From: Nitrospirota bacterium
GTDB lineage: Bacteria > Nitrospirota > Nitrospiria > Nitrospirales > Nitrospiraceae
Reading direction: 5' to 3'
Assembly (NCBI GenBank): GCA_004296885.1
Contig: SCVN01000002.1
Coordinates: forward strand, 1-64,000
Length of the DNA: 64,000 nucleotides
Shown: piece by piece, positions 8,012 to 28,362 of the stretch
How the letters are laid out: each line of letters opens with the position of its first letter
Position numbering within the stretch: position 1 is the first letter of the stretch
Made by a program: the position numbers and the translations under genes
The notes under the pieces: generated by a model
The model's input: the letters and a program-made list of their open reading frames with translations, nothing else
What the model was told of the DNA's origin: nothing
Databases searched by the model: none

Positions 8012-8125
8012 AGGAACTGGTGCGGCAAAATGAAGGCCGTAGCCTAACAGGCGATCACCGATATGTCCAGTTGGCCGCAATTGGCCTTCATGGTTCGTCT
8101 ATGTTAGATTCGCGTCGCAACAACA

Positions 8126-8205
8126 GTCTGAAAGTCGGCAAGTCTTAACGTCATAAAGTCTGTCGGACTTGAAGATTTTTAGACTTTATGACTTTTGGAC
8201 GTTCT
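8126..8205. repeat. Octanucleotide array in inverted halves upstream of leuS
   Basis: Ten 8-base units in perfect phase fill the gap before leuS. The first five begin with GTC and the next five with GA(C/T), so the second half is roughly the reverse complement of the first. The best-paired part is a 12-bp stem, GTCATAAAGTCT at 8150-8161 with its complement at 8181-8192. As RNA it would place a large hairpin 7 bases from the leuS start codon. Confidence 0.8.
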
Positions 8206-8211
8206 TGATTC

Positions 8212-10653
8212 ATGAGCAAAACCTACGACCATCGGGCGATCGAAGCCAAGTGGCAGGCTTACTGGGAAATGCACCGGACGTTCCGCGTCACGGAGGAGCC
8301 GGGCAAGCCCAAGTTTTACTGCCTCGACATGTTCCCTTACCCCTCCGGCTCAGGCCTGCACGTCGGTCACCTGGAGGGGTACACCGCCACGGACATCGTC
8401 TCCCGCTACAAACGGATGAAGGGCTTTAACGTCCTGCACCCGATGGGCTGGGACGCCTTCGGCCTGCCGGCGGAGCAGTATGCCGTGAAGACCGGCATCC
8501 ATCCGGCCACCACGACGGCCCAGAACATCGCCACCTTCCGGCGCCAGATGAAACGCGCGGGGCTGTCATACGATTGGGAACGCGAGTTCAGCACGACCGA
8601 TCCGGATTATTACCGTTGGACCCAGTGGATCTTTCTGAAACTCTTCGAGCGGGGCCTGGCCTATGTGGCGGAAGTGCCGGTCAACTGGTGCCCGGCCCTG
8701 GGGACCGTCCTGGCCAACGAAGAGATCGTGGACGGGAAGAGCGAGGTCGGCGGCTTCGAGGTTGTCCGCAAACCCATGCGCCAGTGGGTATTGAAGATCA
8801 CGGCCTATGCGGACCGGCTGTTGGACGACCTGAAGCTGGTGGATTGGCCGACCAGCACGTTGGAAATGCAGAAAAACTGGATCGGTCGCTCGATCGGCGC
8901 CGAAGTAGAGTTTCCCCTGGCCGGGGTCAATGGCAACTTGCGCATCTTCACCACCAGACCGGACACTCTTTTCGGTGCCACGTATATGGTGTTGGCGCCC
9001 GAACATCCGCTGGTGGAGGCGGTGACGACGGCCGAGCATCGCTCCGAGGTCACGGCCTATCGGGAGGCTGCGGCGCGCAAGAGTGACCTGCAACGGCAGG
9101 AATTGGAGAAGGAGAAGACCGGCTGCTTCACGGGCGGCTATGCGATCAACCCTGTGAACGGGGAGCGGCTGCCCGTCTGGATCGCCGACTACGTGCTGAT
9201 GAGCTACGGCACCGGCGCCATCATGGCGGTGCCGGCCCATGACGAACGGGACTGGCAGTTCGCCCGCACCTATCGGTTGCCGATCCGGGAGGTCATCGCC
9301 GGAGGGAACGTCGAACAGGAAGTGTTCGTGGACACGGGGCGTGGGATCGTCGTCAATTCCACCACGCCTGACGGGTCCTTCTCGATCAATGGTCTCCTGC
9401 CCGCCGACGCGATGCCGAAGATCACCGCCTGGCTGGAGTCTTCGGGCAAGGGCCGCAAGGCCGTCAACTACAAGCTGCGCGACTGGCTTTTCGCGCGGCA
9501 GCGCTATTGGGGCGAACCCTTTCCCATTGTCTGGGTGGACGGAGAACCTCGCCCCCTTCCGGAGGACCAATTGCCGCTGCGGCTGCCCGAATCCACGACC
9601 TTCAAACCGTCGGGGACCGGCGAGAGCCCGCTCGCCAACCTGACCGACTGGCTCGCCACCCTCGATCCGGCCTCGGGCAAGCCGGCCCGCCGCGAGACCA
9701 ACACCATGCCCCAGTGGGCCGGCTCTTGCTGGTACTACCTGCGCTTCATCGATCCGAAGAACCAGAGCCGGTTGGTGGACCAGGCCAAGGAACGGTACTG
9801 GATGCCCGTGGACCTCTACATCGGCGGGAGCGAGCACGCGGTCCTGCACCTGCTTTACTCGCGCTTCTGGCACAAAGTGCTCCACGACATCGGCGTGGTG
9901 AGTACTCCGGAGCCGTTCAAGAAGCTGGTCCACCAGGGGACCGTGTTGGGCGAAGACAACCAGAAGATGTCCAAGTCGCGCGGCAACGTCGTGAACCCGG
10001 ACGACATGATGGACCAGTTCGGGGCGGACGCCGTGCGTCTCTATGAAATGTTCATGGGGCCCTTGGAAGCGGCCAAGCCTTGGAGCAGCAGGGGCGTCGA
10101 AGGCATCACGCGCTTTCTGGACCGGGTCTGGCGGCTGGCGATGGACGAGGAGGGGCATCTGAGCAAGGCCGTCACCGGAGCCGAGCCGGCGCCGGATCAG
10201 CTGCGGGTGCTCCATCAGACGATCAAGAAAGTGACCGAGGATATCGACGCGCTGCGGTTCAACACGGCAATCGCGCAAATGATGGTCTTCACCAACGAGA
10301 TGACCAAGCTCGAGCAGCGGCCGCGGGCTCTGTTGGAGCCGTTCCTCCTCTTGCTGGCGCCCTTCGCCCCGCATCTGGCCGAGGAATTGTGGGAACGGCT
10401 GAGCAAGCAACCCAGCGTCTCCGAGCAGCCCTGGCCGGCCTATGATCCGGCCCTGGTCGTGAGCGAGCGGTTGGAAATTCCCCTCCAGGTGAACGGGAAG
10501 CTGCGGAGCAAGATCGAGGTCGCGGCGGATGCCAGCGAGGCGGAGATCGTCGCACTGGCGCAGCAGGACCAAAAGCTCGTCGAGTGGCTTCAGGGCAAAC
10601 CGCCGCGCAAAGTGATTTATGTGCCGAAGAAGCTCGTCAATTTCGTCGTCTAG
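8212..10653 (+). CDS. leuS: Leucyl-tRNA synthetase
   Basis: This enzyme charges tRNA-Leu with leucine in the cytosol. The 813-residue protein has the class I signature HVGH (HIGH variant, near residue 50), the editing domain in the first half ([18 protein letters not shown] carries the editing-site Asp), the KMSKS loop in QKMSKSRGN, and an anticodon-binding domain at the C-terminus. It is slightly shorter than the E. coli enzyme (860). It is the first gene of a run leading into lptE and holA. The Shine-Dalgarno region is weak and lies beside the octanucleotide hairpin, which may affect its translation. Confidence 0.97.
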
Positions 10654-10667
10654 TCAGCCGACGAACC

Positions 10668-10695
10668 GTGAAAAGTGAAAGGTCAACAGTGAAAG
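10668..10695 (+). repeat. Heptanucleotide array between leuS and lptE, contains the lptE start codon
   Basis: Four 7-base units of consensus GTGAA(A/C)(A/G) run in exact phase from 10668. The last unit begins with the GTG at 10689 that I take as the lptE start, and the unit AG bases before it act as its Shine-Dalgarno (GAAAGG). The array is complementary in style to the second array at 10731-10772. Confidence 0.75.
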
Positions 10696-11354
10696 GTCTG
10701 GTAGGAAGTCGGCTCAGGGTGCCATTCGCTCTTTACTTTTCACTGTTCACTTTTTACTTTTTACCGTTCACGGCCGGTTGCGGCTATCAGTTCCGGGTGG
10801 AAGGGGCGGGGCCGGTCGTGGGCGGGAAGCCGTCCTCCGCCCAGACCGACAAAACCGATAAGCCAAAGGGGCCGACGCCGAAGCTGGCCATCGCTCCGTT
10901 CGACAACCATACCTTCGAACCGAACCTCGAACAGAAGTTCACCGCCTACACGAGGCACGAATTTTCCGCGGGCGGCGGGGTGGAGGTCGTCAACGACAAG
11001 GTCGCCGCCGATCTGTTTATGAAAGCACAGATCGTCAACGTCGTCACCCCCTCGCTCAGCTTCAACCAGAACGCCACCTTCGAGCAACGGGTGACGGTGA
11101 CCGTCAAGGCCACAGTGCAGGATCTTCGCCAAGGGAAAGAAATCTGGACGCAGCAATCCATCGGGGCCGGCGAGTTCTTCCTGACGAACGATTTGCAGTT
11201 CAACCGTGTGCTCCAAAACCGGGCGCTGGAACAGGCGGGCCGACAGATCGCGGCGGATCTGGCCACGCGCTTCCTGGCCCGCTTGGACAATGGCCCCACG
11301 AAGGCCTCCTCAAATCCGGCAACTCCGCCGGCCGCCCGTCCCGACGCCAAATAG
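10689..11354 (+). CDS. lptE: LptE-like LPS-assembly lipoprotein
   Basis: LptE plugs the LptD barrel that delivers LPS to the outer leaflet. With start GTG 10689 the product is 221 residues with an ideal lipoprotein signal peptide: a short basic n-region, a hydrophobic core and lipobox FTAGC followed by GYQF, the family hallmark. The mature part has the segments LAIAPFDNHTFEPNLEQKFT and ADLFMKAQIVNV typical of the LptE/RlpB fold. The position between leuS and holA is the classic context for lptE in many bacteria. An in-frame ATG at 10584 inside leuS would give a long charged extension and no sensible signal peptide. The core of the signal peptide is encoded by a 7-base tandem array. Confidence 0.88.
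   Translation: MKGLVGSRLRVPFALYFSLFTFYFLPFTAGCGYQFRVEGAGPVVGGKPSSAQTDKTDKPKGPTPKLAIAPFDNHTFEPNLEQKFTAYTRHEFSAGGGVEVVNDKVAADLFMKAQIVNVVTPSLSFNQNATFEQRVTVTVKATVQDLRQGKEIWTQQSIGAGEFFLTNDLQFNRVLQNRALEQAGRQIAADLATRFLARLDNGPTKASSNPATPPAARPDAK
10731..10772 (+). repeat. Heptanucleotide array encoding the lptE signal-peptide core
   Basis: Six 7-base units, (C/T/G)TT(T/C)AC(T/C/G), run in exact phase for 42 bases, which is exactly 14 codons. They read LYFSLFTFYFLPFT in the lptE frame, the hydrophobic segment just before lipobox Ala-Gly-Cys. The array is the inverted form of the GTGAA-type array 36 bases upstream, so the two can pair. Confidence 0.85.
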
Positions 11355-11372: not shown

Positions 11373-12425
11373 GTGCGACTCCAGGACATCGTTTCCACCA
11401 TCGCGAAAGACGGGGCGGCGCCCCTCTATCTGGTCACCGGCGAAAAGCGGGGAGGCAGGAAAGACAGTTTCGAGGTGGACGATTATCTGGTGGACCAGGC
11501 GGTGGCCGCGATCAAAGCGGCAGTGCTCGGCGGGGCCGAGGGGGCGGACCGCAGCGGCACGGAAGTCTTCAACTACGATCTCCTCTATGGCGATGAAACC
11601 GACGCGTCGGAGATCCTGGCCCGCGCCGGGGAGGCCCCCGTCTTCGCGTCGCGCCGGTTGATCCTGGTCAAGACGGCCGACAAGTTGCCGGCGGCGGAAG
11701 GGGAAAAGCTGTTGTCCTACCTGGCGGAGCCCTGCGAGACCACCGCGCTGGTCTTCGTGGCGGGGAAGAAGATGGACGAGCGGCGGAAGTTCTCCCAAGC
11801 GCTCATGAAGCGCGCGGTCCTCGCGGACTGTGCGCCGCCGCCGGAGGGCCAGTTGCCGGCCTGGATCAAGGCGGAAGCGAGCCGGGTCGGGGTGAAGGTG
11901 GAAGACGAAGCCGTGCTGTTGCTCAAGGACATGGCTGCGTCGTTGAAAGACATGGCCGGCGGTTCCCTCTACCTGATCCGACGCGAGCTGGAGAAGCTGG
12001 CGGCCTACGTGGGCGAAGGGGCCGTCGCGCGCGCGGCCGACGTGCAGACCCTCAAGGGCACGGAACCGGGCGCCTCGGTCTTCGACTTGACCGGCGCAAT
12101 CGGCGCGCAGAATCGGGCGCAGGCGCTGCGCATCCTCGCGCGCAACCTGGAAGCGGGAGAAGATCCCTTGCGCATCCTGGGCGCGCTGGCCTGGCAATAT
12201 CGGCGGATGTGGAAGGCGAAGGAGCAGGGAGGACAGTGGGGGAGGGAGTCGGACCTGGGCCGGTCCTTTTCAGAGGCCCGCCTCCGGTCGGCCTTCGAGA
12301 AGTTTGCGGAGACGGATTCCAAGTTGAAAGGGGCAAGCGGCGGCTCCAAGACCCGCGTGCTGGAAACGCTGCTGCTGGACCTCTGCGCGCGCCCGAAGGA
12401 AGCCGGGCGCGGCGCCTCGCGATGA
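11373..12425 (+). CDS. holA: DNA polymerase III subunit delta
   Basis: HolA is the clamp-loader subunit that opens the sliding clamp. The 350-residue protein has the family layout: N-terminal RecA-like fold with YLVTGEK, a middle region with ETTALVFVAGKKMDERRK, and the C-terminal collar domain with REDPLRILGALAWQYRRMWK-like sequence (here EDPLRILGALAWQYRRMW). The GTG at 11373 follows lptE by 18 bases with a GAGGG Shine-Dalgarno. The leuS-lptE-holA order, followed by convergent rpsT, is a common bacterial arrangement and supports all three calls. Confidence 0.92.
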   Translation: MRLQDIVSTIAKDGAAPLYLVTGEKRGGRKDSFEVDDYLVDQAVAAIKAAVLGGAEGADRSGTEVFNYDLLYGDETDASEILARAGEAPVFASRRLILVKTADKLPAAEGEKLLSYLAEPCETTALVFVAGKKMDERRKFSQALMKRAVLADCAPPPEGQLPAWIKAEASRVGVKVEDEAVLLLKDMAASLKDMAGGSLYLIRRELEKLAAYVGEGAVARAADVQTLKGTEPGASVFDLTGAIGAQNRAQALRILARNLEAGEDPLRILGALAWQYRRMWKAKEQGGQWGRESDLGRSFSEARLRSAFEKFAETDSKLKGASGGSKTRVLETLLLDLCARPKEAGRGASR

Positions 12426-12723: not shown

Positions 12724-12837
12724 GGGATGTTCTCCGTTGATTCTGAGTGTAAAGGAATGTTCTTGTAACATAGGCATGGCGGCCCGGTCAAGCGGCCGGG
12801 CGCCGGGAGCGGGATGCTCCCCCAACGCGAGGGAATC

Positions 12838-26578: not shown

Positions 26579-26631
26579 GGGCGACCTCATGTGCGCAGGT
26601 GAATTGTGGTGCAGCCGAACGGAACGCATAT

Positions 26632-26754
26632 CAGGATGTTGAAAAAGGCCTTCAGCAAGGCCGCAGCAAGCGAGATCCCGAGTCGTACTTGTTGCCGTAC
26701 GTCGAGGGAGCGAGCGATGCGAGAACGACGCTGGAGGCCTTTTTCAACATCCTG
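26632..26754. repeat. 123-bp palindromic intergenic element
   Basis: Perfect 19-bp terminal inverted repeats (CAGGATGTTGAAAAAGGCC at 26632-26650 and its complement at 26736-26754) enclose a GC-rich centre with a smaller palindrome (GTAC...GTAC). From memory, elements with a GATGTTGAAAAAG arm are frequent in Nitrospira-like genomes. It abuts the stop codon of the TPR-barrel gene directly and could act as its terminator, or as a non-autonomous mobile element of REP/MITE type. A partial arm (TGTTGAAAAAGG) also occurs near 57613. Confidence 0.85.
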
Positions 26755-28362
26755 TTAAAACGAGGCGTTCAGCATCAGCGAATAGATGCTTCTGGTATAG
26801 CTGAACACGTCCACGTTCGTGTCGTCCCGCATATACGTGTACTGAAACGTCAGCGACAGTTGGTCGTTCAAGTCCCGGCTGGCCGCCCCCGTGAAGCTAT
26901 AGATGTTATCACGCCGACGGGTCGTGGGGTCCACCGCGTAGGAATTCGGGTTCAGATACTGCTGATGAATCCAGTCGAACGCCAGGGACACCGCCACGGT
27001 GTAGACGGGCGGCAGCTCCAGCCCCGTCGTGATGTGATGGCCCTGGTAGGCCCAATCGGCATTGTCCAGCTGGTTGGGCGGGCCCGCCACCTTGGGCGAG
27101 CCGCCGCCCGTCACATCCGTGTCGAAGATGTAGCCCAGCCAGGCCCGGCCCTTTTCCCCCAAGGCGAGATATTGGGTCAGGCCCACCAGCCAGTTTTTGC
27201 CGTTGCGCGAGGAGTTCAGCAGAAACCGCCCGTCGCGAAAGACCTTGTCCATGTATCGGAACTGGAGCACCGTCGAGGTGACGTCGGATTCGCTCAGGGT
27301 CAACGAGGTCAGGGCCGTGTTCGCGTTCAGGTACGGCGAGCGTCCCACCAGCGTGTAGTTATAAATGTATTGCAGGTTGAGGCTGACAGGCCCGTCTTGA
27401 TATTGCACGTAGGCGCTGGGCGCATGGTCCTCCACGTCGAAGCCGCTGAGCTTGGAATGGAAGCTCTGGTAGATCGAGTAGGAGATGCCGCCGGCGAACC
27501 GATCGAGCTGCAGGGCGCGATAGTCCACGGACCCGTTGAGCACCGTCCGATAGTCGCTCTGCCGGGAAATGCCGGTGGCGCCGGCCGGCGGGGAGGTGCC
27601 GCCGGGCAGCAGCACCACGTTCGTGTCGTATTCCATCCCGCCCGCGGCGGTCACCTTCCAGGCGCTGGGCTCGGCCTTGGGCGCCTCCGCCGGCGCCTGC
27701 GCGAGCAGGTCCTTGGCTGCCGCGGCATAGTCCGCCTCCGGCGCCGCCGCAATCGCCGCCTCCAGCGTCTGCTTCGCTTCGGTGAAGGCCCCGCGGCGAA
27801 AGTGCGCCACGCCGCTGTAATACTGGGCGGTCGGCGCCAGGTCCGGGCTCAACTCCGCGGCCCGCTGAAACCGGTCCGGCGCCGCCTCGAACTCGCCCAG
27901 TGCATGATGGACTAGACCGAGAAAGAGATGCACCAGCGCATCGTCTGGCTGGACTTTCTCGGCGGCGAGCAAACTGGCTTTGGCCTCCGCATACTGCTGT
28001 TGATGGTATTGGACGATGCCCAGGCCCAACCAGGCAGGGCCGGACGAGGCATCCAGCGCGAGCATGCGCCGGAACAGCGCTTCGGCCTCGGCATACTGCT
28101 TGCGGCGCAGCAGCGACTGGCCCAGATAGTTGCCGGCCTCGGGATCGTCCGGTTTCGCCTCGAGGGCGGCGCGGAAAAATGTTTCGGCCTGCTCGTAGTG
28201 GCCCAGCCCGAAGGCCATGGCGCCGCGCGAGTAGTTCAATTCGTAGACTTCCAGCGCCTCCTGGGCATGAGCGGGAAGGACCGCCCACAAAAACAGGAGC
28301 CACAAGCAGGCGACCTGACAGACCCGACCGGCGGGCCGGCGGGGAACAAGAGCCGGGGCCAT
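26755..28362 (-). CDS. TPR-containing outer-membrane beta-barrel protein
   Basis: About 535 residues from ATG 28362; an ATG at 28398 would add 12 residues. A signal peptide ending LPAHAQ is followed by about five TPRs (roughly 40-240; e.g. GHYEQAETFFRAALEAKPDDPEA) and a C-terminal barrel of alternating strands ending in Phe (SLMLNASF), the outer-membrane C-terminal signature. The TPR-plus-barrel layout resembles surface-lipoprotein assembly modulators (DUF560/Slam) and some exopolysaccharide export proteins. With the downstream FecR protein it may form an export or surface-assembly system. The exact cargo is unknown. Confidence 0.8.
   Translation of the reverse strand: MAPALVPRRPAGRVCQVACLWLLFLWAVLPAHAQEALEVYELNYSRGAMAFGLGHYEQAETFFRAALEAKPDDPEAGNYLGQSLLRRKQYAEAEALFRRMLALDASSGPAWLGLGIVQYHQQQYAEAKASLLAAEKVQPDDALVHLFLGLVHHALGEFEAAPDRFQRAAELSPDLAPTAQYYSGVAHFRRGAFTEAKQTLEAAIAAAPEADYAAAAKDLLAQAPAEAPKAEPSAWKVTAAGGMEYDTNVVLLPGGTSPPAGATGISRQSDYRTVLNGSVDYRALQLDRFAGGISYSIYQSFHSKLSGFDVEDHAPSAYVQYQDGPVSLNLQYIYNYTLVGRSPYLNANTALTSLTLSESDVTSTVLQFRYMDKVFRDGRFLLNSSRNGKNWLVGLTQYLALGEKGRAWLGYIFDTDVTGGGSPKVAGPPNQLDNADWAYQGHHITTGLELPPVYTVAVSLAFDWIHQQYLNPNSYAVDPTTRRRDNIYSFTGAASRDLNDQLSLTFQYTYMRDDTNVDVFSYTRSIYSLMLNASF

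Follow-up and report, generated by a model that had tools for sequence, protein, structure and literature searches.

The closest described system is the palindromic repeat RU-2 of Yersinia, which forms part of the predicted signal peptide of YPO1552 (Delihas 2007, PMC2759123; reviewed in PMC2229807). That case concerns a single gene, the role of which is unknown, and a single repeat family whose sequence is fixed, whereas at the locus reported here many unrelated units occur at one conserved gene across a bacterial family, with replacement of the cassettes between sister species. Rickettsia palindromic elements (RPE) are tolerated in frame inside conserved protein genes; they are fixed element families inserted within such genes, and the accessible portion of the review describes no signal-peptide role for them (PMC2229807). 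Heptamer repeats are known from Xanthomonas (GGGAATC) and Nostoc (GGGGA(C/T)T), and they form mostly intergenic arrays near ORFs, with 70-75 pairs in a convergent inverted layout (PMC4692102). Convergent inverted pairs of heptamer arrays next to ORFs, as in the Xanthomonas type, are found here as well. However, the published units are G-rich and were studied as G-quadruplexes, and the accessible part of the paper describes neither signal-peptide coding nor replacement; no GGGAATC-like unit occurs at the present locus and its counterparts, where the units are GTGAANN, GTAAAAG, GTGCTGA, GCGAGANNN and others. In Beggiatoaceae, TAACTGA heptamers lie just upstream of many start codons, but this is a single unit in direct rather than inverted repeats, with stops in all frames in forward orientation, and translational regulation was proposed for it (PMC4679880). 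SECReTE, i.e., pyrimidine-rich repeats enriched in the mRNAs of secreted proteins, bacteria included (PMC6625729), is a composition motif (NNY) and not a hairpin repeat cassette. REP and BIME elements are described, in the accessible text, as 20-40 bp palindromes with a GTAG or CGTC tag (PMC3733652); by eye, no such tag is present at the ends of the element studied here, the arms of which are 7-mer arrays. In the open-access literature, neither the lptE case nor cassette replacement was found described, and a literature search on the repeat strings themselves returned only unrelated eukaryotic papers.

The window, a stretch of 64,000 nucleotides of contig SCVN01000002.1 from a Nitrospirota bacterium, carries on its forward strand leuS (8212-10653; PF13603, E = 1.3e-63), an lptE-like gene of 221 amino acids (10689-11354; PF04390, E = 6.7e-13) and, downstream of it, a holA-like gene for the delta subunit of DNA polymerase III (11373-12425; PF21694, E = 1.7e-13). 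The order leuS-lptE-holA is also that of E. coli. The LptE family model PF04390 is matched with 49.8 bits, above its curated cut-off of 23, and lptE orthologues are present in 108 of the 118 genomes of the family. Of the named records that contain this gene, the nearest is from a Nitrospira sp. MAG (VGXC01000017.1, L061; loci are cited here by their survey numbers, the window's own being L031). Judged by family membership, the LptE of the window would bind LptD and is probably essential.

An earlier note on this DNA had reported two heptamer arrays at the leuS-lptE junction, with the GTG at 10689 opening a heptamer unit and the 42-base second array amounting to six heptamers, or fourteen codons, for the hydrophobic core ahead of the lipobox, all of which is borne out by direct reading. 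Array 1 (10668-10695, forward strand) consists of the unit GTGAANN four times, one copy being degenerate (GTGAAAA GTGAAAG GTCAACA GTGAAAG), the fourth copy starting with GTG 10689. Array 2 (10731-10772, forward strand) consists of CTTTACT TTTCACT GTTCACT TTTTACT TTTTACC GTTCACG, translated as LYFSLFTFYFLPFT. Array 2 repeats the array 1 unit in reverse complement, and thus the two arrays are the arms of a single hairpin, which together with its loop spans 10663-10769 (stem score 20, lag-7 score 16.5). Both scores are the highest among the 1031 windows of 125 nt in the 64 kb and were reached by 0 of 100 shuffles. The pattern GTGAANNGTGAANNGTGAA has 33 matches in the genome and its reversed form has none. 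A different inverted element, built of units of about 8 bases (AAGTCNNN ... GACTT), precedes leuS at 8122-8201, so that leuS is flanked on both sides by different short-unit hairpins.

Between the leuS stop codon and the lipobox Cys, the start codon, a ribosome-site candidate and the hydrophobic core all fall within the arrays. A Shine-Dalgarno-like AAGG (10679-10682), where the second heptamer meets the third, lies 6 nt before GTG 10689, and the 5' arm encodes the first n-region residues (MKG) of the product. The predicted lipoprotein signal peptide MKGLVGSRLRVPFALYFSLFTFYFLPFTAG (10689-10778) fits a PROSITE PS00013-like pattern, with K at position 2 and Cys at 31; the residue at lipobox position -3 is Thr, not Leu. 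The Cys codon (10779-10781) is in frame with GTG 10689 and is followed by the conserved CGYQF. The strict PS00013-like rule is passed by 52 of 107 loci, and failures among the inspected loci result mostly from the start distance.

The earlier note had further explained the hydrophobicity of array 2 by a unit length of 7, not a multiple of 3, that cycles through the frames. The three frames, LYFSLFTFYFLPFT, FTFHCSLFTFYRS and LLFTVHFLLFTVH, do have KD means of 1.36, 0.42 and 1.86 and are all non-polar, but the proposed cause fails. The worst-frame value is reached in 0.18% of random 42-mers of the window, and shuffles of the same composition match it in 50% of cases, showing that T/C-rich base composition is sufficient and that period 7 is not the reason. 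The alternative frames of the GTGCTGA and GCGAGANNN types lack such hydrophobicity.

Across the family, the DNA between the leuS stop codon and the Cys codon was surveyed at 107 lptE loci. In 125-nt windows that end at the Cys codon, and with p <= 0.01 against dinucleotide shuffles, 38 loci showed a lag-7 signal, 15 a lag-9 signal and 34 an inverted repeat. The corresponding counts in the controls were 0, 3 and 0 of 104 at the lptE-holA junction of the same genomes, 1, 2 and 2 of 106 in the leuS interior, 0, 2 and 3 of 106 in mature lptE, and 0, 1 and 0 of 21 for other lipoproteins of the surveyed genomes. These genomes are related and hence not independent samples, but the unit types, assigned by hand, span several genera and include single-contig genomes. 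The units differ by species and are unrelated to one another, i.e., GTGAANN, GTAAAAG, GTGCTGA, GCGAGANNN (period 9), GGCGAGA/GGCGATG and GGAAAAA, and in the types inspected the hydrophobic core is encoded by the 3' arm. The earlier note had suggested comparing orthologues for signal peptides encoded by non-repeat DNA, and such cases are common: 45 of the 107 relatives, one congener included, have no recognised repeat type at the junction. With about 40% of the relatives devoid of clear repeats, the repeats are not required, and the suggested dependence of export on repeat DNA may apply to this genome but does not extend to the family. Among 20 lptE loci from the phylum outside the family, 6 carry a lag-7 signal, the array encoding the n-region rather than the core in several of them.

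Selection on the signal is weak at the peptide level, as the 20 codons that precede the Cys have a pN/pS of 0.59 vs. 0.12 in the first mature codons, and the ratio is 1.0 in the B cassettes. The c-region ALSLSLSAC of B-type LptE signal peptides (L042, L045, L052, L057, L081, L110) comes from a further small palindrome, GCGCTGAGCCTGTCGCTCAGCGC.

Comparison of close relatives showed that the cassette is replaced between flanks that remain nearly identical. For L056 and L052, identity is 94% in leuS, 95% in mature lptE and 93% in holA, vs. 31% in the cassette, and for L063 and L057 the values are 92%, 93%, 93% and 42%, respectively. The window and its congener L033 share 86% in leuS, 83% in mature lptE and 87% in holA, vs. 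22% in the cassette. In the sister-species alignments, identity is lost at the leuS stop codon, which itself differs between L056 and L052, and returns at the lipobox Cys codon; these two codons are thus the left and right borders of the cassette. Among 116 pairs with a leuS four-fold divergence of up to 0.32, cassette identity is bimodal, at 0.80 within a repeat type and 0.53 (unrelated) between types, with flanks at 0.86-0.91. Point mutation cannot produce this pattern. Unrelated cassettes between near-identical flanks, together with shared cassettes in different genera (below), indicate that the signal peptide acts as a cassette of repeats that can be replaced. About 29 changes of unit type are needed on the tree of LeuS and mature LptE; the possibility that the cassette travels with mature lptE found no support (28 Fitch changes on the LeuS tree vs. 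32 on the LptE tree).

The reverse situation, i.e., similar cassettes between diverged flanks, was observed as well. The window locus and L036, which belongs to another genus, differ by a four-fold divergence of 0.47-0.62 in the flanks but by 0.15 in the cassette, loop included, and L045 and L042 differ by 0.54-0.65 and 0.12, respectively. Between the window and its nearest relative, cassette divergence is already small compared with four-fold divergence (ratio 0.04 to 0.21), and slow vertical evolution within a type could be an alternative to transfer. The L033 junction holds an inverted repeat, followed by an ordinary signal peptide. This sequence is similar to the 28-bp inverted repeat TATCAGGATGTTGAAAAAGGCCTTCAGC at 26629-26757 of the window, which belongs to a family with about 20 AGGATGNTGAAAAANNC matches per genome. 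At the leuS-lptE junction, the GGAAAAA hairpin of L054 aligns by eye with a degenerate hairpin in L089, as if the array had been rebuilt in place and not inserted.

The lptE junction is not the sole site of such repeats. In the window's own genome (gene context from 456 kb), inverted short-unit elements fill the spacers of co-directional genes, and 31 of 377 sampled gene starts have lag-7 signals at p <= 0.01, about 4 being expected. Of the ones examined, most proved to be arrays ahead of the start codon, and some are chance or coding (e.g., at 12814 of the window). The 3' arm is part of the coding sequence at lptE, whereas at the other sampled sites it usually precedes the start codon. Of the 118 family genomes, 95 have GTGAANN arrays, for which control hits were few, 26 have GTGCTGA arrays and 27 have GCGAGANNN arrays. 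The hisA-hisF and hemE-hemH spacers (L191-L208) hold different inverted heptamers in related species; the former has GTGAANN in the window's genome vs. a GAATGATG-type hairpin in two congeners, and the latter has at least three unit types among the genomes read. As hemH and hisF were picked for having elements in this genome, they are examples and do not give a rate, but from these sequences spacer replacement looks general in these genomes. In one further case (L018, G000:C15:1-98), a GTGAANN element is fused in frame directly before the sequence SPFTVHRSRIPIIAMTAN..., seemingly a response-regulator receiver domain in truncated form; as the contig begins here, this may be a broken gene or an assembly edge.

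We consider it probable that the stretch bounded by the leuS stop codon and the Cys codon is a repeat-hairpin cassette like those in operon spacers throughout this genome, which has been replaced repeatedly and serves as the signal peptide. At lptE, the cassette would extend from the spacer into the coding sequence, its purine-rich 5' arm supplying the GTG start, the AAGG ribosome site and the basic n-region, and its T/C-rich 3' arm encoding the h-region, the hydrophobic part of the lipoprotein signal peptide. A purine-rich arm in the sense direction yields K, R, E and G together with GTG starts, and its complement F, L and S. A purine-then-pyrimidine hairpin thus has the layout of a signal peptide, which would explain why unrelated cassettes can serve. 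Because the junction must act as a signal peptide and such hairpins tend to do so, unrelated cassettes have replaced each other again and again in the family while the flanks stayed. The exchange most likely occurred through short recombination tracts between relatives or through insertion of genome-wide repeat families. That one loop-specific cassette occurs in more than one genus favours short recombination tracts at the junction, and the L033 element favours genome-wide repeat insertion. Points against this reading are the Thr at lipobox position -3, the number of loci that fail the strict PS00013-like rule, and the hairpin itself, which would bury the lptE start codon in the mRNA.

The cassettes could instead be a miniature mobile element (MITE- or REP-like) that jumps into operon spacers, with lptE as one landing site. 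The dispersed GTGAANN copies in most genomes and the resemblance of the L033 sequence to a family of about 20 copies are consistent with this proposal. However, unit sequence, unit length and loop are too variable for one element, and despite the many dispersed unit copies, arm length, loop and ends vary between loci, with no common ends or common terminal inverted repeats seen. In addition, the cassettes substitute for the previous sequence rather than adding to it, and the sister-species alignments at the junction show replacement, with no clean empty site or target duplication. A mobile element of this kind is unlikely, though it deserves some weight.

We give little credence to the proposal that the hairpin is mainly an RNA regulatory device between leuS and lptE (an attenuator, or a determinant of mRNA stability or translation coupling), to which the overlap with the signal peptide would be secondary. 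The predicted RNA hairpin is very stable (-59.2 kcal/mol, z = -6.8, vs. -35 for shuffles), the elements lie in spacers of co-directional genes, and three pairs in the B cassettes have changed on both sides. However, the RNAalifold covariation term of the B cassettes is +0.81, which is unfavourable to a conserved RNA structure, and many pairs are broken. The stem is absent in many relatives, and at several C-type loci it has decayed while the signal peptide is still hydrophobic.

It is improbable that the real start is another of the three in-frame GTGs (10668, 10689 and 10719), so that the arrays would encode just part of the signal, although both alternatives are in frame and a simple gene finder chose 10719. 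GTG 10668 is cut off by an in-frame TAA in L032, and GTG 10719 has neither K/R in the n-region nor a ribosome site. The AAGG of GTG 10689, by comparison, is kept in L031, L032 and L036, making GTG 10689 the best candidate, from which we infer translation to begin; whichever GTG is used, array 2 encodes the hydrophobic core.

Signal peptides and spacers evolve fast, but ordinary divergence of a weakly constrained segment, with short repeats made by slippage, is very improbable here, since the cassettes of different-type pairs are unrelated at a flank four-fold divergence of 0.26 while same-type and non-repeat pairs at 0.16-0.22 keep 0.80-0.82 identity in a bimodal distribution, and slippage does not explain inverted arms.

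The origins of signal peptides are poorly documented, and here repeat DNA has repeatedly taken the place of the signal of a conserved, probably essential lipoprotein, the near-identical flanks serving as a natural control. The hairpins form a fast-replaced class of operon-spacer element in Nitrospirota, for which no description was found in the open-access literature. They also offer a route, open to testing, by which hairpin repeats that code for nothing could become functional targeting signals. More tentatively, purine-then-pyrimidine hairpins may be a standing source of signal peptides, in that cassettes from a shared pool would be swapped wholesale at lptE, each providing a working start, n-region and core, and an essential export signal would thereby become an exchangeable module.
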